Source: Paracoccaceae bacterium Fryx2
GTDB lineage: Bacteria > Pseudomonadota > Alphaproteobacteria > Rhodobacterales > Rhodobacteraceae
Direction: 5' to 3'
Assembly (NCBI GenBank): GCA_032334235.1
Contig: JAVSGI010000003.1
Coordinates: 310,001 to 374,000, forward strand
Length of the DNA stretch: 64,000 bases
The notes under the pieces are model-generated. The model was given only the letters and a program-made list of their open reading frames with translations. It was not told where the DNA came from and did no database searches. Position numbers and translations under genes: made by a program. The first letter of the stretch is position 1; each line of letters opens with the position of its first letter. Shown piece after piece: positions 1 through 21,436 of this stretch.

Positions 1-118
1 CGTCGGGCTTAAGGCCCCGGCCCCAGCTGCGCAGCAGTTGATCGGAACCGTCGAAGGTGTCGGTCTCAACGAAGGTCGATACGGACCTCGGCGAGGCTGT
101 CGAGTTGGGCACGGACAT
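1..118 (-). CDS. Phage terminase large subunit, GpA type (N-terminal fragment)
   Basis: Only the first 39 residues or so are inside the window; the gene continues past the left edge. From the ATG at 118 the minus strand reads through residues including LLRSWGRGLKPD, which matches the start of GpA-type large terminases (ATPase and nuclease that cut and package phage DNA). The start overlaps the end of the upstream small-subunit gene by 53 bases in another frame, a usual arrangement for packaging genes. A weak GGAAG lies just before the ATG, and a GTG at 112 is an alternative start. The family is inferred from this short stretch and from the neighbour. Confidence 0.6.
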   Translation of the reverse strand, partial: MSVPNSTASPRSVSTFVETDTFDGSDQLLRSWGRGLKPD

Positions 119-674
119 GGGCTTCCAGAACCTTCTGCATCATGACGGGCTCCAGACTTCCATGATCCGCGATCATCACCCCCAGTTCCGACGCCATCAG
201 CGCCGCCGCCCGCGCGGGCCACGTCACCCAGGCGTCGCGTTCCTCTCGCGCCAGCCGGAACACCAGGCCCACCGCGCGGTCCCGGTCGATCAACTCGCCC
301 TTCAGCTTGGCCAGCTTCAGCTTGCGCTCCTGCGCTTTCAGAACCTCGTTGGCGGTCCTGGCCTGCAGAAAGGTCGTGCCGCCGCCAGTGACTGGGGCGG
401 GCAACCCTTCCTCGCGCAGCGTCTCACCCACGGCCGACAGCGCAGTGTCCGGCACCGGCTTTAGTTTGGGTGCCGGTGCCGGTGACGGTGCATTTCTTGC
501 CTCGCCACGTTGCTTGGCAGGGTCCGTCATCGCAGCGCGCCGCGCATCAGACGCAGCCGCATCAATCGACCCATCGACGTACTGAACCAGCCGCCCGGTA
601 TCCTTGGCCTTCTGGATAGCACCGCGCGACAAGCCGACATGGGCGGCATATTGGCGCTCGCTCATCCCCTGCAT
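66..674 (-). CDS. Phage terminase small subunit-like protein (202 aa)
   Basis: Likely DNA-recognition subunit of the phage packaging enzyme. Near the N-terminus is a helix-turn-helix-like stretch (SERQYAAHVGLSRGAIQKA) like the Nu1 family; a low-complexity linker rich in A, P and K follows, then a helical charged segment (EVLKAQERKLKLAKLKGEL) typical of small terminases. The ATG at 674 is chosen because AGGG lies about six bases upstream. The frame stays open to 767, and ATGs at 695 and 665 are alternatives. The 695 start would run into the palindromic operator at 697-713, which argues for a start downstream of it. The gene is followed by the GpA-type large terminase. Confidence 0.7.
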   Translation of the reverse strand: MQGMSERQYAAHVGLSRGAIQKAKDTGRLVQYVDGSIDAAASDARRAAMTDPAKQRGEARNAPSPAPAPKLKPVPDTALSAVGETLREEGLPAPVTGGGTTFLQARTANEVLKAQERKLKLAKLKGELIDRDRAVGLVFRLAREERDAWVTWPARAAALMASELGVMIADHGSLEPVMMQKVLEAHVRAQLDSLAEVRIDLR

Positions 675-696
675 CTCGCACCCTGTATTCTTCATA

Positions 697-713
697 AAGC
701 AATGATATTGCTT
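697..713. promoter_or_regulatory. Operator-like palindrome, copy 1
   Basis: AAGCAATGATATTGCTT is a perfect inverted repeat (AAGCAA, 5-base spacer, TTGCTT) between the terminase gene and the divergent small-gene cluster that starts at 788. A near-identical copy lies at 1936-1952, and both are preceded by CATA. The position in a divergent intergenic gap and the dyad symmetry suggest a repressor site; the binding protein is unknown. Confidence 0.55.
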
Positions 714-787
714 GGAAATGAGTTGATTACACTCTGCGAAGGAGCGATTCTCGGAACAGGAAATCACCCCTGATCGGAGACCAGATC

Positions 788-6824: not shown

Positions 6825-8000
6825 TCAAGAAGGCAGCGGTTCGGTGCCCTTGTCCAGCAGGGTCAGATAGGCGGAGTAGGCGAAGATGCGGCCCCGTTGC
6901 CTGCCCGTGGTTTCGCGTACGATCCCGGCCTCCCGCAGGTGATCGAGAGCCGCCCCGACCGTCGGAAACGACATTTCCAACGCCTTTGACGCCGACTGGG
7001 TCGTCAGGATCGGGCGGCTTTGCAGCAGGTCATGGACGCGCAACGCGGAAGGGGCGGCCCGGCCAAGGCGGTTGATCTTCTGGCGGTCGGCATCGAAGAG
7101 GGCGAAGAGTTCCCTTGCGGTGTCGGCAGCCTGCTCGGCGGTTTCGGCCACGCCGGTCAGGAAGAATTCCATCCACGCTTCCCATGCCCCCGCCTGCCGA
7201 ACCTCCTGCAACAGCCGGTAGTAATCATCCCGCCGCGATTTCAGGAACAGGCTGAGATAGAGGATCGGCTCGCGCAGCACGCCAGCCTCGCACAAGATCA
7301 GCGTGATCAGCAACCGACCAAGCCGACCATTACCATCCAGAAACGGGTGGATCGTCTCGAACTGCACATGGGCCAGCCCCGCCCTGATCAGCGGCGGCAT
7401 GCCCGGGTCGTCGCTGTGCAAAAAACGTTCGAAAGCGTCGAGACAGTCCGGCAGCCGGTCGGGCGGCGGCGGCACGAACAGGGCATTGCCGGGACGCGTG
7501 CCACCGATCCAGTTCTGTGACCGCCGGAACTCACCGGGTTGCTTTGAAGCGCCGCGACCGGATTTCAGCAGGATATCGTGCATCTCGCGGATCAGCCTGA
7601 GCGACAGGGGAAACCCGCCGCGCATGCGCCGGACACCATGCTCGATGGCGGCGACATAGTTCGAAACCTCGGTCACATCGTCGATGGCGACTTGCGGGAT
7701 TTCGTCGCTTTCGAACAACAGCAGGTCCGACAACGACGACTGCGTGCCTTCGATCTGCGATGACAGCAGCGCCTCCTTGCGGACATACATGAACAGGAAC
7801 ATTGGTGTGGACGGCAGGATCGTGGTCACGCCATCCAGCCGTCCCACGGCTGCCGTTGCCCGGTCGTAGAGCCTGAGGATCGGCGCGAGGTCGAGCGGCG
7901 GCACGGGCGGTAAAGGTGCCGGAACATACGCCCGAACCTTCTCACCCCCAGCGACAGTCTCGATATGCGTGCCGAGGCGGGTCTGTTCCGGTGTTGGCAT
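6825..8000 (-). CDS. Fic family protein with winged-helix C-terminus (391 aa)
   Basis: Fic enzymes transfer AMP or a related group from a nucleotide to protein hydroxyls. The catalytic motif HPFLDGNGRLGR is complete at 218-229. An N-terminal inhibitory helix with SSQIEG (residues 80-85) fits the [ST]xxxE[GN] rule, so activity is probably autoinhibited. The last 80 residues (ILTTQSASKALEMSFPTVG) look like a helix-turn-helix. The ATG at 8000 is chosen for the typical N-terminus and an AAAGGA upstream, although the frame is open to 8297. The TTAAAGG repeats just upstream suggest autoregulation. It could be a defence, toxin-like or host-modifying factor of the element. Confidence 0.82.
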   Translation of the reverse strand: MPTPEQTRLGTHIETVAGGEKVRAYVPAPLPPVPPLDLAPILRLYDRATAAVGRLDGVTTILPSTPMFLFMYVRKEALLSSQIEGTQSSLSDLLLFESDEIPQVAIDDVTEVSNYVAAIEHGVRRMRGGFPLSLRLIREMHDILLKSGRGASKQPGEFRRSQNWIGGTRPGNALFVPPPPDRLPDCLDAFERFLHSDDPGMPPLIRAGLAHVQFETIHPFLDGNGRLGRLLITLILCEAGVLREPILYLSLFLKSRRDDYYRLLQEVRQAGAWEAWMEFFLTGVAETAEQAADTARELFALFDADRQKINRLGRAAPSALRVHDLLQSRPILTTQSASKALEMSFPTVGAALDHLREAGIVRETTGRQRGRIFAYSAYLTLLDKGTEPLPS

Positions 8001-8010
8001 CTCGGCACCA

Positions 8011-8060
8011 TCCTTTAATTGGGCATCCTCGTTATTAAAGGATAACGCATGAACCTTTAA
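8011..8060. promoter_or_regulatory. TTAAAGG inverted and direct repeats upstream of fic
   Basis: TCCTTTAAT (8011-8019) and ATTAAAGGA (8034-8042) are a perfect 9-base inverted repeat; a third CCTTTAA lies at 8054-8060. The first arm also contains the AAAGGA that serves as ribosome site for fic on the minus strand. The arrangement fits an operator bound by the Fic protein's own helix-turn-helix, which is inference. Confidence 0.45.
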
Positions 8061-8077
8061 CAAGGAAGCCCGGTTAT

Positions 8078-8506
8078 TCAAACTTCCCGCGCCTGCCGGA
8101 TCACGTGGTTTATCGACCTCCTCGCTGACAATTGCCTTCCGTTCAGCCGCCAGACGATGACTGCGATGCCGTATTGCCAGCGCCGGTTTGCAGTGGCACG
8201 GCTGATGCCGATCTCCCAGCAGACCAGCTTCCACGGCTTGCGGTTGGCGCGCAGCCACAGAAGCCGGGCGTCGCCAGGCTCCAGCCAGCGCAGCCACAGG
8301 AGCGTCTCGTCAGCCTCGGTGATCATTCGCGGTGATGGCAACGGTTTACGCATGCGCGGCTCCTGACCCACCTTGTCGGCGAAGCTGGAGAGGTATTCAG
8401 GCCAGGCGCTGACATAGCCCTGCGGGCGCACCGGTGGCATCGCACGCATGACGTCTGCCGCAAGCTCCAGCCGGTCCGCAACCATGGCGCGGGTCCAGTC
8501 AGCCAT
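8078..8506 (-). CDS. DUF6362 family phage protein (142 aa)
   Basis: The protein carries the features I associate with DUF6362: an N-terminal helical part (ADWTRAMVADRLELAADVM), a PSPRMITEADETLLWLRWL stretch and a C-terminal helix-turn-helix-like section (KLVCWEIGISRATANRRWQY, about residues 96-115). It probably binds DNA; its role is unknown. The ATG at 8506 follows a strong AGGAGGTG site. The 5' end overlaps the upstream small gene by 8 bases. Confidence 0.72.
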   Translation of the reverse strand: MADWTRAMVADRLELAADVMRAMPPVRPQGYVSAWPEYLSSFADKVGQEPRMRKPLPSPRMITEADETLLWLRWLEPGDARLLWLRANRKPWKLVCWEIGISRATANRRWQYGIAVIVWRLNGRQLSARRSINHVIRQAREV

Positions 8507-8708: not shown

Positions 8709-9241
8709 GTGGCACCCCCCTTGCTGACCTTCGCCATCGCCTGACGTGCCTGCGTAGCCAAGCGACGGTCCCCGCCGTTGTCGAGATCGATCCGGCTCAG
8801 GCCGGTCTCACGATCGACATGGCTGCTTTCGCTGTGGCGGGCCCAAGAAACAAACGCTCGGCTCATGTTTCTTTGGGACACTTCAAGCGCCGATTGCGCC
8901 GCTGCTGTGATCAGTGGCGCGATGTGCTGGGTGAAGAACGGCAGCCAATCGGTCCTGTTGGGGACAAGAACCTGTTCCACGAGTCCGGCTTCCGTCTCAA
9001 TCAAGACGAATGTCCCGGCAGTTGAACTTGGCCAGAACCGGACCTCGAGCCAGCCCCCTTCGATGCTGCTGTCATCGGTAAGTGGCACGCTGTAGCAACC
9101 AAGCGCCCGTGTGAAGGAGTGGTGCCAGCTGTTACCTTCTTCTTGCCAAAGCCGGTTGGCTTCATGATACCAGTCCGGCAGGTCCACGTCGTAAAGACGC
9201 CCGGCTTCGTAAACGCGCAACGTGTTATAACACATGATCAT
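8705..9241 (-). CDS. Hypothetical protein (178 aa)
   Basis: No known domain is recognised. The protein is soluble, with aromatic-rich N-terminal part (YDVDLPDWYHEANRLW) and a helical C-terminus. Start and stop both overlap neighbours as ATGA (9238-9241 and 8705-8708), so it is coupled to the large replication protein gene upstream and the small gene downstream. ATG at 9235 is an equally good start. Its composition is slightly less GC-rich than its neighbours. Confidence 0.6.
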   Translation of the reverse strand: MIMCYNTLRVYEAGRLYDVDLPDWYHEANRLWQEEGNSWHHSFTRALGCYSVPLTDDSSIEGGWLEVRFWPSSTAGTFVLIETEAGLVEQVLVPNRTDWLPFFTQHIAPLITAAAQSALEVSQRNMSRAFVSWARHSESSHVDRETGLSRIDLDNGGDRRLATQARQAMAKVSKGGAT

Positions 9242-12200
9242 TCTTCCTCTGTGTGTGGGTAGTTTGTGAACGTGGGGTTCGGCTTTGCTGCCTCCAGACG
9301 GGCTGCCAGCGCATCGAGGGCGGCGCGGCGCGTGGCGAGGACGGCCTGCATGCTGGCGGTCAGGCGGGATTCGAGGGCGTCGAGACGCTCGGCGTCGGGC
9401 TGCTCCGGCGCATCTTGCGCAGCGATGTCACATGGCGTTACCTCGAAGCTCGCCAGAGGCCCAAGGCGGTTGGTCAGCCAGGCTTCGGGATCAGGAATGC
9501 GGGCGAGATCGACGGGGGCGATACGGGCGCGGTGGCCGGGACCCTCGGGGCGGTAGGTCACCTCCGCAGAGGAGTGTGACATTTGGCTATTATAGAGATC
9601 CCTATAATAGCCAAATGTCACACTCCTCGCCCGATCTTGCCGGGCTGCCTCGGCCGAGGGCCAGAGGTTCGGGAAGCAGGCGGCCATGTCTGCTGCATTG
9701 TCGAGCACGATGCCTGCGAGCGCCATCAGGTCGCGCCGGGTCGGCTTGAGGTCGGACCATGGCACGAGTTCGTCCACCGTCACGGGCAGGACGACGTCGG
9801 CGAGGATGTCGATCCCGAGTGGGGTGTCCACCGTCCGGTTGACGCCGCGCCCACGCCCCATCGCCTGGATCAGTTCGCCCTCGCAGATGCTCCAGCGGAC
9901 TGCCTCGGCGATCGGGTCGGCGTGGGTCTCCATGGCGAGGGGGGCAGTCCGGTCGCCCGCGAGGCGCAAGCGTCGCTCGGCCATGGGATACCACCAGCCC
10001 GCATCCTCCGGGTTCGGGGCGGGCACGCTGCCGGTCAGCGCCATGGCGATGAGCTCTACTGTGCGCGGCGCGGGCAGCGTGCGGCCCAGCACGATCAGGC
10101 CGCCGATGTCGCCCCAGCGGTCGAGCCCGCTCAGTGCGTTGAAATGCACCGCCTCCACGCGGGGCGGCAGACCGGCCGCCCGCAGCGCGTCGATCGCGGC
10201 CTTCTGGCCGACGACCAGCAGATCGATGCGCGCGCCGGGGCGGCGGCACTGACGGGCGCGCAGCGCAATCCAGGCGGCAAGGTCGCGCAAACGGCTTGCG
10301 GCGGTCTTGCGGTCGCGCTCCGGCGCGTCCGGTCCGGGCGTCAGCCCACGGGCTGAGGTCGGGCTGCCGGTGACCTGGCGGATGCGGACATGGGGCTGGC
10401 GCGCGACAACGGGCGCGCCGATGTCGATCAGCGGCAGGTAGGTCTGGACCAGTTCGGGGCGTAGCGTGGCATCGAGATGCAGGATCGGTGCCTCGGCCGC
10501 CCAGCCCGCGCGCAGACGGCTGCGCCAGCGCAGGCGCAGGGCGCGGACCGAACCGGCGTCGGTGCGCTCATGGCCGAGTTCGGCACCGGCGGCATCGTGG
10601 CCATTCTCCAGCGCCTCGGCGAGGATCAGCCAAAGCGTGGCGCAGCGCCCCGGCGGCGCCCATGGCTCACCCGGGGGCGGCAGGACCTTGTCGATCCGCT
10701 TGCGCCGTTCGACGGATGACATACCCGGCAACAATCCGGCATCGCGCATCCGGCGGCGTTCCAGCCTCGCGGCGGCACGACAATCCTCGGGGGTGAGACC
10801 TACGGCTTCCAGAAGCCCGACGCGCAGGGGCCCGGGTTCCGCGACCTGCAGCGCCTTCCACAACCGGGTGCGGGCAGCGACGAGGTCCGCCGTGGCACCC
10901 ATGTCGATCTTGCCCTTGGCCCCGTAGCAGACCAGCGAGCTCCGCCCCGGTTCCAGCCCGTCCTGAGTCAAGGTGGCCTTGCCGTCGAGGCCGCGCAGGC
11001 CCGATTGCCAGAAGGCCTCGTCGATGACGAGGAGCCCGACGGTGCCGATGGCCTCGGGCTTCATGTGGAACAGGCTGTCATGGGCGCAGACGACGACCTG
11101 CGCAGCCTGTGCGATAGCCTTCTGCCGCTGATAACCGCAGGCGTGGAAATGCGCGCAGAGGTGCAACTCGCCGCCGCGCTTGACCTTGCAGCAACTCTGT
11201 TCAACCGGATGCTCGATCTCCAGCGCGTCGAAGGTCGCCTCGCTGTCAAGGCACATGAGCTGGTTCGGGTTATCGGGCGAGGGATCGGGCGCGGTGCGGC
11301 CTTTCCAGAGCATGGCGCGCAGGCCAAGGCCCGCGAAGACTGTCACCTGTTCAGCGCCGAGGTCATGGCGCGGCACGGCATAGACGACCTTGCGCCCGTC
11401 CAACCCGCCCGAGGCGAGGAGGTCAGCGATGGCGGCGCGGGCGCGCGATGTCTTGCCGAGGCCCACATCGACTGGCAGGCCGAGCAGCGGCGGTAGTGGG
11501 GCCCACGCCACCAGGTTGAAATCTAGCGGATCGCGGTCCTCAGCCGCGTCCTGTGCCGCCTCGCGGGCGACCTCGACGGCGGTCCAATAGGCAGGCACGG
11601 CGGCCATGAAGCGCGAAATGGCGTCCGCGAGTGTCGCGCGGGCTTGGTCCGGCGTCAGGAATGGTGCCGGGTATGTCGGCGGCGGTAGCGGGATCTTCGC
11701 CGCGACCGCCACGAGGGCCACGACCGCCTCCGGACCTGCGGCACAGAACAGATCGTTGGCGTCGCCCGGAGCTTCGGGCACAGCAATGCGGGCATCGACG
11801 GCAAGGGCGGCCTTGCGCGCACCATCGACGCCGGGGTTGGTGTCGCGGTCGGGCCTGGCGTCATTGTCGGCGAACAATACGAGATCGGCGTTGGGGAGGC
11901 GGCTGCGCAGCGCCTCTGTCACCGGCAGCAGGTTGCCCGCATCCATCGCGGCGATGACGGTGTGGCCGGTTGCCATGTGTAGGCTGGCCCCGGTGGCCCA
12001 GCCTTCACAGATCAGGATCGGACCGGTGGGGTCAGCGATGGAAGCCGGGTCTGCCCCGATGACGCAGAAATGCCCGCGCTTGGCACCGCCCGCAAGAAAT
12101 CGCTTGGCCCCGTCAGGGGCGATTGTCTCGAGGCTGTGAAGATGGCCATCCGCATCCTGAAGCGGCACGACCAGGTGCCCGCAGGCATCAGCGCGCAAGG

Positions 12201-12723
12201 CCAGCGGCCGGACCTGCTTGCCAGTGAGATAGGGATGACCCTCGGGGGCCGGATGCGCCATCGCCCAGATCCGTGCGGCGCGGGCGGCGGCTCTTGCGGC
12301 GGGGGTCGCGGCGTCCGGCTCGGGCGCGCCGGAGGCGGCACTAACCGGCTCGGCAGAGACAGAGGCGCCGCGCGGGCTGATCAGACTATCCGTCGCAGGA
12401 CGCGTCGCCCGCTTGGCGATGCGCGGGTGCATCCCGAAATCGCCCGCCACGCCGATGCGATCACCGATCCAGTGCAGGGCTTCGTGACGGTTCAGTCCAC
12501 GAAGGCGGCAGACAAGATCGACCAGCCCGCCGCCGATCCCTGCCTCGTGGTCGAACCACATCCCGGCCTTCGGACCGGCGATCACGACCGCCAGGCTGCC
12601 CTTGGTGCCCCAGCGCCATTCCTGGCCTGCACGCACACTCGGCTTGCCCAAGAGCTCGACCGCAAGCTCCTGCGCCCGTGCCCGCAACTCGGCATCGAAG
12701 GCCTGCCAGTCCCGCCCGCTCAT
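9238..12723 (-). CDS. Phage replication protein: Toprim primase-like domain with helicase-like domain (1161 aa)
   Basis: The N-terminal part (residues 1-230) resembles CHC2/DUF7146-type primase regions. A Toprim domain follows, with EGWATG at 240-245 and DND at 286-288. A helicase-like part has GLGKT at 421-425 (motif I) and DEAF at 567-570 (motif II). Between these motifs cysteines at about 510, 511, 522 and 528 could bind a metal or Fe-S cluster. It likely primes and unwinds phage DNA. The ATG at 12723 fits the domain start; the frame is open to 12906. A perfect 27-base-arm inverted repeat lies in the 3' part (about residues 1032-1052). Downstream genes overlap by ATGA. Confidence 0.8.
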   Translation of the reverse strand: MSGRDWQAFDAELRARAQELAVELLGKPSVRAGQEWRWGTKGSLAVVIAGPKAGMWFDHEAGIGGGLVDLVCRLRGLNRHEALHWIGDRIGVAGDFGMHPRIAKRATRPATDSLISPRGASVSAEPVSAASGAPEPDAATPAARAAARAARIWAMAHPAPEGHPYLTGKQVRPLALRADACGHLVVPLQDADGHLHSLETIAPDGAKRFLAGGAKRGHFCVIGADPASIADPTGPILICEGWATGASLHMATGHTVIAAMDAGNLLPVTEALRSRLPNADLVLFADNDARPDRDTNPGVDGARKAALAVDARIAVPEAPGDANDLFCAAGPEAVVALVAVAAKIPLPPPTYPAPFLTPDQARATLADAISRFMAAVPAYWTAVEVAREAAQDAAEDRDPLDFNLVAWAPLPPLLGLPVDVGLGKTSRARAAIADLLASGGLDGRKVVYAVPRHDLGAEQVTVFAGLGLRAMLWKGRTAPDPSPDNPNQLMCLDSEATFDALEIEHPVEQSCCKVKRGGELHLCAHFHACGYQRQKAIAQAAQVVVCAHDSLFHMKPEAIGTVGLLVIDEAFWQSGLRGLDGKATLTQDGLEPGRSSLVCYGAKGKIDMGATADLVAARTRLWKALQVAEPGPLRVGLLEAVGLTPEDCRAAARLERRRMRDAGLLPGMSSVERRKRIDKVLPPPGEPWAPPGRCATLWLILAEALENGHDAAGAELGHERTDAGSVRALRLRWRSRLRAGWAAEAPILHLDATLRPELVQTYLPLIDIGAPVVARQPHVRIRQVTGSPTSARGLTPGPDAPERDRKTAASRLRDLAAWIALRARQCRRPGARIDLLVVGQKAAIDALRAAGLPPRVEAVHFNALSGLDRWGDIGGLIVLGRTLPAPRTVELIAMALTGSVPAPNPEDAGWWYPMAERRLRLAGDRTAPLAMETHADPIAEAVRWSICEGELIQAMGRGRGVNRTVDTPLGIDILADVVLPVTVDELVPWSDLKPTRRDLMALAGIVLDNAADMAACFPNLWPSAEAARQDRARSVTFGYYRDLYNSQMSHSSAEVTYRPEGPGHRARIAPVDLARIPDPEAWLTNRLGPLASFEVTPCDIAAQDAPEQPDAERLDALESRLTASMQAVLATRRAALDALAARLEAAKPNPTFTNYPHTEEE
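9569..9628. repeat. Perfect inverted repeat, 27-base arms, inside the replication gene
   Basis: Positions 9569-9595 pair without mismatch with 9602-9628 around the 6-base loop AGATCC. The arms are AT-rich inside (CTATTATAG) and GC-rich outside, unlike the surrounding coding DNA. Because of the symmetry both strands can encode the same peptide (VTFGYYRD). The coding frame runs through it without interruption. It may be a replication origin hairpin, a protein binding site or an inserted palindromic element. Confidence 0.75.
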
Positions 12724-12888
12724 CGCCGCCCCCGTGCATCGGGCACGCGCGCGCCGGCCAACCCGAGGGCCGTGGCGGTGGCGTGCAGGGGGTGATGCAG
12801 ATTGGCGGACAAGGTGGATCAGAACCGGAGTTGGGGTGTCATTACCCCCCGGTTCTGCCGCCTTCCGGGCCTTGTCCGAAACGTCGGA

Positions 12889-13110
12889 ACCGGTCCACCC
12901 GGTCAAGCGTCACCTCGCCGGAAAGGGTGGAACCCTTCCCGCAAGATGCTGAAATCACGTCAGATAAAGGGTGGACCCCAAGGGGTCAGAAGGGCTGTTC
13001 CGAGGACCGCCCGCCGCCGTCAGGCGAAGGTGGGTGGAACCCTTCCGGGCGTGAATGGGGTGAACGGTTCTACCCACTCGTCGGGGTGTGGCGGGAAGGG
13101 TGGAACCCTC
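12889..13110. repeat. GGGTGGAAC repeat cluster in a 620-base gene-free gap
   Basis: Between the replication gene (5' end at 12723) and the gene starting at 13344 I see no supported gene. GGGTGGAACCCTTCC occurs at 12925-12939 and 13032-13046, GGGTGGAACCCTC at 13098-13110, GGGTGGACCCC at 12969-12979, and inverted or degenerate half-sites at 12891-12899 and about 13057-13074. The same motif forms a palindrome at 19361-19381. The cluster may be an operator or iteron region controlling the divergent genes on either side. Confidence 0.55.
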
Positions 13111-14747: not shown

Positions 14748-14963
14748 TCCGCATGGATGTCCCCAGGTCTAGGGGCAACACAGGCTGGAAAAGTCTTGGG
14801 GGCGGCAAGAGATTTGCGTGTTTCGCTTGATGGTGGGCATCGATTTCACGGGATCATGGGCAGTCATTTCGCGTGAAGCTGGGCACTGATTTCGCGGGAT
14901 CGCGGGCAGGTCTGGTCGGCAAATTGAGGATAGTTGCGCCTTCAGGAATGAAGGGGTGGCTTG

Positions 14964-16502
14964 ATGCCGACAGGACGATTGAACATGCGCCGGATACGAG
15001 ATGTTTTGCGATTGAAGCTTGGGCAAGGCCTGAGCGAGCGGTCCATTGCCGCTTCCCTCGGTCTGAGCAAGGGGAGCGTCGGAAGCTACACCCAACGGGC
15101 GCGTCATGCCGGGCTCACGTGGCCCTTGCCGGAGGGGATCGATGACGACAGCCTTGAACTTCTTTTGTTTCCAGCCCCGCCCACGGTGCCGGACGCGGAG
15201 CGGCTTGTGCCCGACTGGGCGGAGATTGACCGCGAGTTGCGCCGCCCTGGGGTGACGCGGATGCTGCTCTGGGAAGAATACCGTGCCGCGCACCCCGGGG
15301 GTTTTGCCTATACTTGGTTTTGCACGCATTACGAGGCTTGGAAGGGTCGGGTGCGCCCGACGATGCGCCAGACACATGTGGGCGGCGAGAAGGTGTTCGT
15401 TGACTTTGCCGGCGACACCATCGACGTGATCGACCCCACGACCGGCGAAGCGCGGGCCATGAAGCTGTTCGTGGCGGCAATGGGGGCATCGAATCACACC
15501 TATGCCGAGGCGGTGGCATCGGAGGGGTTGGAAGATTGGATCCTCGCGCATATCCGGATGTTCGCCTTTCTGGGCGGCGTGCCAAAGGCGGTGGTTCCGG
15601 ACAATCTGAAGTCCGCCGTGATCAAGGCAGACCGGTTTGATCCGGGGCTGAACCGGACCTATGCCGAGATGGCGGCGCATTATGGCACCGCCGTTCTGCC
15701 CGCCCGGCCGCGCAAACCCCGGGACAAGGCGAAGGTGGAAGTGGCTGTCCAAGTGGCACAACGCTGGATTCTGGCGCGGCTGCGGAACCACCGGTTCTTC
15801 TCATTGGCCGAGTTGAACGTGGCGATCCGGCGGCTGCTGGACGAGTTGAACATGCGCGTGATGCGCGGCTATGGCGCCAGCCGCGCCGATCTGTTTGCCA
15901 CTTTGGATCGGCCCAATCTTCAGCCCCTACCGCCCGAACCTTATGTCTTCGCCCGCTGGAAGCGCGCCCGCGTGGCACCCGACTATCACGTTGAGGTCGA
16001 CAGCTCATGGTATTCCGTGCCCTTCGCGCTGATCAAACAAGAGGTCGATGTTCGCACAAGCGGCCAGACGGTCGAGATATTCCATCGTGGTCAGAGGGTT
16101 GCGAGCCACGTGCGCACCCCGGGGCGGCGCAGCCATGTCACCGTGGCCGACCATATGCCATCGGCCCATCGTCGCTTTGCCGAATGGACCCCGGCCAGAA
16201 TGCTGGCGCAGGCAACCAAGACCGGCCCCGCCGTCGCCGCCTTTTGCGAGATGGTGATGGCTGACCGCCCCCATCCTGAACAGGGGTTCCGCACCTGCCT
16301 GGGTGTGCTGGCCTTGGTCAAAACCTATGGGCCGGAGCGCGTTGATGCGGCCTGCCAGCGGGGTGTGACCATCCGGGCCCGCACCGTCACCTCCATTCGT
16401 TCGATCCTCAAGACCGGCCTCGATCGCGCCTTCCTGGAAGGCTCCGAAGAGGTCGCCCCCCTCCAGCACGCCAACATTCGTGGCGGCAGCTATTACCATT
16501 GA
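14964..16502 (+). CDS. istA: IS21-family transposase IstA (512 aa)
   Basis: DDE recombinase that cuts and joins the IS ends. The N-terminal 60 residues are a helix-turn-helix (IRDVLRLKLGQGLSERSIAA). The catalytic core shows FVDFAGDT (first Asp, about residue 150), VVPDNLKSAV (second Asp) and a Glu in DKAKVEVAVQ. A C-terminal beta-rich region is usual for the family. The ATG at 14964 follows GGGG; a TTG directly before it could also start. The length is normal for IstA and no damage is visible, so it is probably active. It acts with IstB, encoded 12 bases downstream. Confidence 0.92.
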   Translation: MPTGRLNMRRIRDVLRLKLGQGLSERSIAASLGLSKGSVGSYTQRARHAGLTWPLPEGIDDDSLELLLFPAPPTVPDAERLVPDWAEIDRELRRPGVTRMLLWEEYRAAHPGGFAYTWFCTHYEAWKGRVRPTMRQTHVGGEKVFVDFAGDTIDVIDPTTGEARAMKLFVAAMGASNHTYAEAVASEGLEDWILAHIRMFAFLGGVPKAVVPDNLKSAVIKADRFDPGLNRTYAEMAAHYGTAVLPARPRKPRDKAKVEVAVQVAQRWILARLRNHRFFSLAELNVAIRRLLDELNMRVMRGYGASRADLFATLDRPNLQPLPPEPYVFARWKRARVAPDYHVEVDSSWYSVPFALIKQEVDVRTSGQTVEIFHRGQRVASHVRTPGRRSHVTVADHMPSAHRRFAEWTPARMLAQATKTGPAVAAFCEMVMADRPHPEQGFRTCLGVLALVKTYGPERVDAACQRGVTIRARTVTSIRSILKTGLDRAFLEGSEEVAPLQHANIRGGSYYH

Positions 16503-16514
16503 GAAAGGACTAAA

Positions 16515-17276
16515 ATGCTGACCCATCCCACCCACGACCGACTGTTGGCGCTCGGCCTGACCGGCATTGCATCGGCGCTCGAAGAACAACGCAGGTCAAC
16601 CGCCTTCGACGCCCTCTCGTTCGAAGAGCGTCTCGGCCTGCTGGTCGACCGCGAGGCTGCAGAGCGCGACACCAAGAAACTGGCCTCCCGGCTCAAGTTT
16701 GCGGCTCTGCGCCAAGATGCCAGCGTCGAGGATCTGGACCTGCGCAGCCCACGTGGTCTTGACCGCAGTGTCATGGCGCATCTTGCCGATGGCGGCTGGA
16801 TCGCCCGGCACGAGAACCTGCTGATAACCGGGCCGACCGGTTTGGGCAAAAGCTGGATCGCCTGCGCCCTTGGCCACAAGGCGTGCCGGGATGGGCGGCC
16901 CGTCCTCTATCAACGTGCGCCGCGCATGTTCGAGGCCCTTGCTCTGGCCCGTGGCGATGGCCGCCATGAACGCATCCTCAAAACCATCGCCCGCATGGAT
17001 GTGCTGATCATTGACGATTGGGGCCTCGCCGTCCTCACCGCCCCGGAGCGCCGTGACCTGCTGGAAATCCTCGAAGACCGCCACGGCCGCGCTTCCACCA
17101 TCGTCACAAGCCAACTCCCCGTTGACCAGTGGCACGAAGCCATCGGCGACCCAACGCTCGCAGATGCCATCCTCGACCGCCTCGTTCACAACGCACACCG
17201 CCTCACCCTCTCAGGTGAAAGCCTGCGCAGGCGCTCCGCCGTCACAAAAAAGCTTGACCAAATCGTTCAAGCCTGA
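16515..17276 (+). CDS. istB: IS21-family helper ATPase IstB (253 aa)
   Basis: AAA+ ATPase related to DnaC that stimulates IstA and helps choose targets. Walker A is GPTGLGKSW (about residues 103-111), Walker B is VLIIDDWG (about 162-169), and the sensor region TIVTSQLPVDQWHEAIGDP is typical. AAAGGA lies just before the ATG. The reading frame is complete and the length is normal. Confidence 0.92.
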   Translation: MLTHPTHDRLLALGLTGIASALEEQRRSTAFDALSFEERLGLLVDREAAERDTKKLASRLKFAALRQDASVEDLDLRSPRGLDRSVMAHLADGGWIARHENLLITGPTGLGKSWIACALGHKACRDGRPVLYQRAPRMFEALALARGDGRHERILKTIARMDVLIIDDWGLAVLTAPERRDLLEILEDRHGRASTIVTSQLPVDQWHEAIGDPTLADAILDRLVHNAHRLTLSGESLRRRSAVTKKLDQIVQA

Positions 17277-19452: not shown

Positions 19453-19674
19453 ATGTTTGATCCCAGCCCCCTCCGCCGCCCCAATCCCCTACCACCCGAC
19501 CAGATGACCGCCGCCGAGCGCCGCGCCGAACTCTGCGGGCTGCTGGCGCTCGGCCTGCGCCGTTTGCATATCCGAGACGCGGCCCAACTCTCTGACGCAA
19601 ATGGAGAAAGTTCGCTACACTGTCCGCCCGACCAATGGCCTCGTGCAACTCCAACTCACCGGAGACACGCATGA
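19453..19674 (+). CDS. Small protein preceding recombinase module (73 aa)
   Basis: Short protein with MTAAERRAELCGLLALGLRR in its first half and ESSLHCPPDQW near the end. I recall this pattern in small open frames directly before DUF2924/recombinase genes in alphaproteobacteria. Function is unknown. The ATG at 19450 is in frame too. The stop overlaps the DUF2924 start (ATGA, 19671-19674). Confidence 0.6.
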   Translation: MFDPSPLRRPNPLPPDQMTAAERRAELCGLLALGLRRLHIRDAAQLSDANGESSLHCPPDQWPRATPTHRRHA

Positions 19675-20117
19675 CCAATCCCATCCCCGCGCGCCTGGCC
19701 GCGCTGAAGACCACCCCAACGCCGGGCCTGAAACAGCAATGGCGCGACTTGTTCGCCACCGAGCCGCCACCGTTCAATCGCAGGTATCTCGAAAGCCGAC
19801 TGGCCTACCGCATCCAGGAACTGACCTACGGCGGGCTCAAGCCCGAGACGATCCGGCGGCTGGAAATGCTTGGGGAACAGCTGGATGGCGGCAATGTCGT
19901 CACTCGCCGCATCCGCAGCAACCTGAAGCCCATGGCCGGAACCCGGCTGATCCGGGAATACCAAGGCATCGAGCAGGTCGTGACCGTATTGCGGGACGGC
20001 TTCGAATGGCAGGGGCGGCCCTACCGCTCGCTGTCGGCCATCGCGCGCGCCATCACCGGCACCCGCTGGAACGGCTGGGTGTTCTTCGGCCTCAAGAGCA
20101 ACAGGGGGATGGCATGA
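19671..20117 (+). CDS. DUF2924 domain protein (148 aa)
   Basis: Matches the DUF2924 pattern: LKQQWRDLFATEPPPFNRRYLESRLAYR split over residues 20-47, then GTRLIREYQG (about 90) and FEWQGRPYRSLSAIARAITG with WNGWVFFGL at the end. Proteins of this family sit beside large serine recombinases in prophages and islands and may assist recombination or regulate it. GGAG precedes the ATG. ATGA overlaps join it to the genes on both sides. Confidence 0.82.
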   Translation: MTNPIPARLAALKTTPTPGLKQQWRDLFATEPPPFNRRYLESRLAYRIQELTYGGLKPETIRRLEMLGEQLDGGNVVTRRIRSNLKPMAGTRLIREYQGIEQVVTVLRDGFEWQGRPYRSLSAIARAITGTRWNGWVFFGLKSNRGMA

Positions 20118-21436
20118 GCAAACCCGCACAACCGGACAAGCTGATCCGGAAACTGCGCTGCGCCATCTACACCCGGAAATCCTCCGAGGAAGGTCTGGAG
20201 CAGGAATTCAACAGCCTGCATGCCCAGCGCGAGGCCTGCGAAGCTTACATCGCCAGCCAGCGGTCCGAGGGTTGGGTGCTGGTGCGCGACCAGTACGACG
20301 ACGGCGGCGTCTCGGGCGGCACGCTGGAACGCCCGGGCCTGAAACGGCTGCTCGCCGACATCGAAGACGGGCTGGTCGATGTGGTCGCCGTCTACAAGAT
20401 CGACCGGCTGTCGCGCTCGCTGATGGATTTCTCCAAGCTGGTCGAGGTGTTCGACCGCAATGGTGTGACCTTCGTTTCCGTGACCCAGTCGTTCAATACC
20501 ACCACGTCCATGGGGCGGCTGACACTGAACATACTTCTGTCTTTCGCCCAGTTCGAACGCGAGGTGACGTCCGAACGCATCCGCGACAAGGTCCGCGCCA
20601 GCCGGATGAAGGGGATGTGGATGGGTGGTTGCCCACCGCTAGGATATGTCGTGAGAGACCGGAAACTGGTGGAAAACCCCGCCGATGCCGCGCACGTCCG
20701 CTGGGTCTTCGCCCGCTTCATCGAGATCGGCTCGGGCACCGAACTGGCGCGCGAACTGGCCGGGCGCGGGGTTACCACCGCTCGCGGCCACCGCATCGAC
20801 AAGAAGTTCATCTACCGGATGCTGAACAACCGGGTCTACATCGGCGAGGCCGTGCACAAGGGCACCAGCTATCCCGGCGAACACGCGGCGATCATCGACC
20901 GCGCGACATGGGACAAGGTGCACAGCATCCTGACCGAAAGCCCGCGCAAGCGCGCTGCCCGCACCCGGGCCGACACGCCCGCGCTGCTGAAGGGGCTGGT
21001 CTACGGCCCGGACGGCGCGGCCTTCTCGCCAACCCACACCCGCAAGGGCAGCAGGCTCTACCGCTACTACGTCAGCCAGACGGTGCTGAAGCACGGTGCC
21101 GGATCGTGTCCCATCGGTCGCGTCCCTGCAAGCGAGATTGAGGCGGCAGTCATTGACCAGTTGCGCGCCGTGTTCCGCCAGCCGGAGATCATCGCGGGCA
21201 CATGGAAGGCGGCGCGGGTGCAGGACGGTGGAATCACCGATGTCGAAACCCGTGAAGCCCTGACCCGCCTCGACCCGCTATGGGATGAGTTGTTCCCCGC
21301 CGAACAGGCCCGTATCGTGGCGCTGCTGGTCGAGCGGGTCGACATCGGCACCGAGGGAATGAACGTCCGGCTGCGAATGGACGGGCTGGCCGGGCTGGCG
21401 CGCGAAATGATCCCCGATGTTGGAGAGGCTGCATGA
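20114..21436 (+). CDS. Large serine recombinase (440 aa)
   Basis: Site-specific recombinase that can integrate and excise the element. The N-terminal resolvase domain has YTRKSS with the likely nucleophile Ser23, a KIDRLSRS motif (about residues 94-101) and FAQFEREVTSERIRDK (about 142-157). The recombinase domain follows (GMWMGGCPPLGY, then TELARELAGRGV), and a zinc-ribbon-like part is weak. At 440 residues it is on the short side for phage integrases of this class. The ATG at 20114 overlaps the DUF2924 stop, and its stop overlaps the next start. No tyrosine integrase is present, so this is the best integrase candidate for the element. Confidence 0.88.
   Translation: MSKPAQPDKLIRKLRCAIYTRKSSEEGLEQEFNSLHAQREACEAYIASQRSEGWVLVRDQYDDGGVSGGTLERPGLKRLLADIEDGLVDVVAVYKIDRLSRSLMDFSKLVEVFDRNGVTFVSVTQSFNTTTSMGRLTLNILLSFAQFEREVTSERIRDKVRASRMKGMWMGGCPPLGYVVRDRKLVENPADAAHVRWVFARFIEIGSGTELARELAGRGVTTARGHRIDKKFIYRMLNNRVYIGEAVHKGTSYPGEHAAIIDRATWDKVHSILTESPRKRAARTRADTPALLKGLVYGPDGAAFSPTHTRKGSRLYRYYVSQTVLKHGAGSCPIGRVPASEIEAAVIDQLRAVFRQPEIIAGTWKAARVQDGGITDVETREALTRLDPLWDELFPAEQARIVALLVERVDIGTEGMNVRLRMDGLAGLAREMIPDVGEAA

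Follow-up and report, generated by a model that had tools for sequence, protein, structure and literature searches.

A long palindrome at a fixed codon of a prophage primase-helicase gene, a candidate cis-acting DNA site

Results

A palindrome inside a primase-helicase gene

We analyzed a 64,000-nucleotide stretch of the genome of Paracoccaceae bacterium Fryx2 (contig JAVSGI010000003.1, positions 310,001 to 374,000; hereafter the window), in which a prophage gene joining a Toprim primase to a superfamily 2 (SF2) helicase carries a long palindrome near its 3' end (Table 1). A preliminary description, made from the letters of the window, had reported a perfect palindrome with 27-base arms lying in frame in this gene. 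Both points are correct: the palindrome occupies codons 1093-1113 of 1222 on the minus strand, and its full arms are 30 bases long (9569-9598 and 9599-9628), with zero spacer and 29 of 30 positions complementary. From the outside inwards, 27 perfect pairs are followed by one mismatch and then two pairs. The runner-up palindromes in a scan of the window have 12-bp arms, and in 300 shuffles of synonymous codons within the gene, which keep the protein, the top best score was 14, compared to 27.5 observed. A 21-base half-site of the arm pattern that we call S below has no other copy in the 5.47-Mb genome at up to three mismatches, and neither a direct-repeat array nor iterons are present at the palindrome site.

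The palindrome holds its codon in close relatives and comes in two versions

Bacterial genomes yielded 29 related loci, of which 20 (L003-L022) match over at least 700 residues. Two of the 20 (L019 and L022) do not span the site; each of the other 18 close relatives carries the palindrome, centred on the identical codon. Because independent assemblies of the relatives show the same structure, an assembly artefact, which the preliminary description had considered, is excluded, and the same 18 homologues rule out a recent palindromic insert, another option it had raised. A search of viral contigs that was independent of the palindrome gave 18 loci, 16 of which cover the site, and the palindrome is present in all 16; most of those viral contigs were also recovered when we searched with the core pattern. 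The core-pattern search of viral contigs returned 19 stretches, 16 of them in the helicase gene and three (L037, L040 and L051) without a match to that gene. Across the genomes of the family (n=394), the S half-site, at up to two mismatches, occurs in one besides the window's own, again in the helicase gene.

Two versions of the arms are found, GAGGAGTGTGACA (S) and GAGGAAGGGGACA (K), with changes matched on both arms; the K-pattern half-site has no other copy in the genome at up to two mismatches. Arm positions 18-23 are paired without exception in the 19 distinct close 60-mers. Position 22 is G-C in nine and T-A in ten, and position 24 is T-A in ten and G-C in eight, with one mismatch. Synonymous-codon identity over the 15 codons 1094-1108 is 0.89, against a gene mean of 0.64 (standard deviation 0.10; 26 sequences including the window). 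Other stretches of high synonymous identity are the first 20 codons (up to 0.91), which are probably upstream of the true start, and the vicinity of codon 1178 (0.86). We take the palindrome to be a genuine element, under selection as DNA.

Perfection is peculiar to the window copy

Arm positions 14-17 are paired in 3, 2, 1 and 2, respectively, of the 19 close 60-mers, the window being included each time, and in most relatives the left arm here reads AAAC or AAAT and the right arm TTTG or TTCT. The window copy has turned symmetrical, and its residue 1098 is Phe in place of Asn. The earlier argument that protein selection alone would not keep the palindrome perfect needs dividing: there is support for the palindrome being kept by more than the protein, but its perfection is not kept, as the relatives are imperfect. 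Among close relatives, full perfection is peculiar to the window copy, and its cause is likely to be hairpin-templated correction of a quasi-palindrome.

A Bradyrhizobium copy (L055) is perfect too, with 26 of 26 positions paired. At 9001-9333 of L055, the homologous C-terminus shifts to another frame directly past the perfect 26-bp-arm palindrome, which looks as if palindrome correction had shifted the frame.

Distant homologues carry palindromes at the predicted codon

We examined 29 distinct distant homologues; records were fetched for 16 of 20 from one search and for three more (H79, H81 and H93) of 34 from another. The site codon was predicted with a hidden Markov model (HMM) profile of 13 helicase parts, and whole open reading frames (ORFs) were scanned for palindromes. 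The site could be predicted in 23 homologues, about 25-40% identical, and in 17 of these a palindrome lies at most two codons away from it, being the best of its ORF in 16 and the second best in L053. Of these 17, nine belonged to the profile; outside the profile-building set, eight of 14 match (L107, L110, L111, L113, L114, L116, L119 and L137; binomial p 2e-15). Four sequences were fetched once the rule was set: L137 is an exact match, L138 and L139 have no palindrome, and L140 has neither a predicted site nor a clear palindrome. Elsewhere, L106 has a long palindrome 13 codons away from the predicted site, L108 a GC-rich 13-bp palindrome 14 codons away, and L120 and L123 have palindromes about 10 and about 50 codons beyond the last aligned residue. 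Past the helicase stop of L112 stands a hairpin with 16-bp arms, which is probably a terminator and not the in-gene element.

In the 19 distant palindromes, 20 of the innermost 21 arm positions show three or four Watson-Crick types, and the letters are unrelated from family to family. As the palindromes were chosen for pairing, this variety is only descriptive, and it is their position that is independent evidence. Their central 24 bp are 54-79% AT, compared to 29-50% for the ORFs, an A+T-rich stretch of the kind found at repC-type origins.

The two versions are swapped together with neighbouring residues

A tree of 29 close genes that leaves out codons 1-62 and 1071-1122 requires nine changes of the S/K version, compared to a mean of 9.6 for shuffled labels; the version has therefore been exchanged between gene backgrounds. 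Up to about codon 1068, L009 (K) is almost the same as L005 and L021 (both S), and it then diverges through the palindrome and beyond; the pairs L008/L017 and L035/L004 show a more local differing block. Corrected mutual information with the version (30 sequences: 17 S and 13 K, including the window) exceeds 0.35 only at residues 1083-1111, and the highest value elsewhere in the gene is 0.32. Outside the palindrome, the version-linked residues are 1085, 1086, 1089, 1090, 1092 and 1093 (0.59-0.95) and 1083 (0.40). Low-confidence models place helices at segment 1083-1093 and say nothing further. This co-variation suggests that the segment may take part in reading the arms.

Plasmids and the region upstream of the gene

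The helicase is found on 19 plasmid records, which we searched for the Rep families RP-C, RPA and Rep_3. Six have at least one of these above cut-off (Bac_DnaA matches in four records, at 20-36 bits, were excluded from the counts), and RP-C (PF03428) is present on four of the 19, elsewhere on the record than the helicase gene. The palindrome occurs in 10 of the 13 records without these families, compared to two of the six with them (Fisher p 0.095). Records smaller than 70 kb have the palindrome in eight of nine cases and RP-C, RPA or Rep_3 in none of nine; among the larger records, the palindrome is found in four of 10 (p 0.04). The minimum of the cumulative GC skew lies nearer to the palindrome than expected by chance on eight plasmids (mean normalised distance 0.28, p 0.016); pNYY1_6, which does not have the palindrome, was computed and left uncounted, and two records listed as linear were handled as circles. 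One plasmid labelled Bacillus safensis, NZ_CP015609.1 (H44), encodes a helicase nearly as close to the window's as those of Roseomonas mucosa plasmids; the record is possibly mislabelled or contaminated.

About 390 bases 5' of the likely start of the gene are conserved in 30 other loci, and GGGTTCCACCC-like repeats recur at similar places in a 26-row alignment; the exact GGGTTCCACCC motif or a close form is present in the upstream stretch of just 12 of 32 rows. At one mismatch, GGGTTCCACCC has five matches in the window, four of them in the upstream stretch, a result equalled by two of 100 shuffles. These upstream repeats may be operators or iterons.

The helicase family and the prophage

The true start of the gene is probably the ATG at codon 62. 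Toprim_3, at residues 297-393, is the sole Pfam domain reported for the window gene; the SF2-type helicase motifs were identified by eye, and DEAD (Pfam) is matched by five of 19 homologues. Between motifs I and II, C90, C111, C123 and C129 are invariant in a 19-row alignment, the four-cysteine arrangement of XPD/DinG-like iron-sulfur (Fe-S) helicases. The DinG profile is matched weakly by two of 19 members (best E 0.0013), XPD and DinG chains give E values of 0.05-0.4, and Upf1-type NAM7 does slightly better (E 0.009 over about 70 residues). Collectively, the cysteines and the weak DinG, Csf4 and XPD matches suggest an iron-sulfur helicase of the XPD/DinG-like kind.

The helicase part is uncommon: 21 of 385 genomes of the class were matched, mostly in the Toprim domain only, and its profile was matched in seven of 398 genomes of the phylum. 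At E 0.01 it had no match in the phage collection, and distant proteins used as queries found no relative in two viral-contig scans. Structure models of 762 amino acids and of a 121-amino-acid domain reached a predicted local distance difference test (pLDDT) score of 50 and 63, respectively, both low confidence, and the modelled domain has no fold match in the PDB at E 0.001. From secondary structure, one could imagine that a winged helix reads the palindrome. Three genes annotated as bifunctional DNA primase/polymerase instead of Toprim (L106, L109 and L140) have the same helicase part; L106 has a palindrome, and L109 and L140 have none.

The gene belongs to a tailed prophage. The window encodes its terminase small subunit and DNA methyltransferases, and genes for the terminase large subunit, portal, protease, major head, tape measure and tail proteins lie to the left of the window. 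Among the phage genes, the open frame at 6825-8297 resembles a Fic-family protein, judging by its motif. An IstA/IstB-like pair (IS21 type, by eye) occupies 14961-17276, with the replication gene on one side and the integrase end of the prophage on the other.

Table 1. Features of the window discussed in the text, in window coordinates
Feature	Position	Strand	Remark
Palindrome	9569..9628	(-)	In the helicase gene, from the last base of codon 1093 to the second of codon 1113
AT-rich inner part (CTATTATAG..CTATAATAG)	9583..9614	.	Near-constant in close relatives
Codons 1083-1093	9628..9660	(-)	Residues swapping together with palindrome version, by mutual information
Helicase motif VI (GRGRGVNR)	9835..9858	(-)	Palindrome centre 86 codons further on in close relatives
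Toprim primase - SF2 helicase gene	9238..12906	(-)	Open frame of 1222 amino acids
Conserved stretch upstream of likely start, with GGGTTCCACCC-like repeats	12724..13110	(-)	Candidate operator or iteron array
Terminase small subunit	66..767	(-)	Same prophage
Large serine integrase	19601..21436	(+)	Probably of the prophage

Discussion

A candidate origin possibly read by its own gene product

We give an even chance to the reading that the palindrome works in cis, as a double-stranded DNA site of origin type, and that the helicase-initiator whose coding sequence contains it is also its reader. Its fixed codon position, joint change of the two arms, AT-rich centre, lack of G-U preference and swapping as a cassette all support such a site, and from them we infer both the origin function and the link between reader and site. 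The preliminary description had proposed an in-gene origin, by analogy with lambda-type phages, or a regulator site. What stands of this is a cis-acting DNA site, as seen in the fixed position, the matched arm change and the DNA-level constraint, with the origin our preferred extension of it; the lambda type is not supported, as iterons are absent from the site.

In such a mechanism, a protein segment at about residues 1083-1095, possibly as a dimer, would bind the arms, the AT-rich centre would melt or extrude as a cruciform, and the helicase plus its attached primase would load at the palindrome. With no more than about 30 codons holding both the reader and the site, recombination would then move the two as one unit, and they would stay matched. 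A wider proposal, which we make only tentatively, is that this is a self-linked specificity cassette, in which the same 30 codons encode the DNA-reading segment and the palindrome. Its two deeply different versions within one element family would be exchanged by recombination as incompatibility or exclusion types, and the layout would serve a widespread, unnamed class of helicase replicons comprising prophages and plasmids.

Several observations weigh against an origin read by the helicase. Arm position 25 is unpaired in seven of the 19 close 60-mers. The comparison of homologues with and without the palindrome, which the preliminary description had proposed, is uniform among close relatives covering the site (18 of 18) and divided among distant ones: 17 of 23 have it at the predicted site, and nine of 29 have none (L108, L109, L112, L115, L121, L122, L138, L139 and L140). 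Three of these nine, L108, L112 and L138, are on plasmids that lack RP-C, RPA and Rep_3, on which one would expect an origin. Two plasmids with another Rep protein (L055 and L137) retain the palindrome. The link of the palindrome with the absence of other Rep genes is weak, as are the size and GC-skew results, which cannot separate the palindrome from the gene. The conserved upstream repeats constitute a rival origin, and the model of the 121-amino-acid domain is a low-confidence one with no fold match. For the arm-reading segment, a plainer alternative is that neighbouring codons hitch-hike on the swapped block.

Alternative explanations

A possible but somewhat unlikely alternative is that the palindrome is a DNA site with another job, such as an autoregulation operator, a centromere-like partition site, or a recombination or incompatibility site, and that replication starts at the upstream repeats. 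The DNA-level evidence fits this equally well, and the upstream repeats look closer to a classical region of iterons or operators. However, the half-site is single in the genome at the mismatch limits given above, which is unusual for an operator or partition site, and the arm letters vary by family while the codon position stays.

It is quite improbable that the palindrome is functionless and perpetuated by hairpin-templated correction. The window copy, perfected beyond its relatives, and L055, likewise perfect and with its C-terminus in another frame past the palindrome, are what such a process would leave behind. However, neutral palindromes are prone to deletion, and neither synonymous conservation nor a fixed position in very distant genes would be expected of one.

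A hairpin formed by the helicase mRNA and governing its expression or decay would suit the window copy, whose folded RNA is very stable (-51.7 kcal/mol for 80 nt), but the wider set of palindromes makes this equally improbable. Of the 476 arm pairs in 19 distant palindromes, 403 are Watson-Crick, 12 are G-T, 13 are A-C and 48 are other. For unselected mismatches, the expected ratio of G-T to A-C to other is 2:2:8, and the 73 mismatches observed (12:13:48) therefore show no wobble preference, G-T being no commoner than A-C. In RNA folding, the coding strand was better than the other strand in just nine of 19. The absence of both a G-T preference and a coding-strand advantage speaks for a site that acts as duplex DNA or as a cruciform, not as mRNA.

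Finally, although an in-frame palindrome that the protein tolerates recalls a mobile insert of the Rickettsia type (RPE-like), this is very unlikely and in its simple form already refuted, since RPE-like elements have copies in many unrelated genes, whereas here there is a single genome copy, 16 of 19 viral core matches are in the same gene (the other three being without a match to it) and the palindrome is present in all 18 close homologues that span the site.

If the palindrome is indeed an origin-type site, these data suggest an unrecognised type of replicon, shared by alphaproteobacterial prophages and plasmids, with its start site hidden in the replication gene, and this could account for the replication of small plasmids that have none of the common Rep genes. 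The locus also offers a case in which a protein-coding gene conserves the pairing of DNA arms and not the letters in them. Since two versions exist in nature, the match between reader and site can be tested directly.

Comparison with known systems

Searches of an open-access library turned up no paper on an in-gene palindrome of this helicase family. The lambda ori, inside gene O, resembles the site described here in lying within a replication gene, and differs from it in having iterons. Phage N15 has an origin in its repA primase-helicase gene, and satellite phage P4 has ori elements; the likeness lies in a multi-domain primase-helicase whose gene has an origin within it or nearby, and the difference is a helicase part that has no match in the phage collection. 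The telRL of N15-like phages, a telomere-resolution site, is also a long palindrome with an AT-rich inner part, whereas here the palindrome lies in an open reading frame, of an integrated prophage and of plasmids mostly listed as circular.

The nearest precedent is the oriV inside repC of Rhizobium and Agrobacterium plasmids, and we know of no swapping of two versions there. The origin of repABC plasmids is placed within repC, in or near an A+T-rich stretch where silent mutations abolish replication (PMC3155836), and RepC is described in a review as binding a 150-nt region with an imperfect dyad inside repC and as working only in cis (PMC6090056). The protein there is of the RepC family and here a Toprim/SF2 helicase; RP-C (PF03428) is not matched by the window gene in Pfam, and in four repC ORFs palindromes reach best scores of 6.8-8.1, compared to 27.5 here. 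As the protein is not RepC and the palindromes of repC ORFs score so low, the locus is not of the repC type. Nevertheless, the palindrome sits within the coding sequence of the helicase gene, and if the helicase is indeed the initiator, then the two systems would share an A+T-rich origin lying in the coding sequence of its own initiator.
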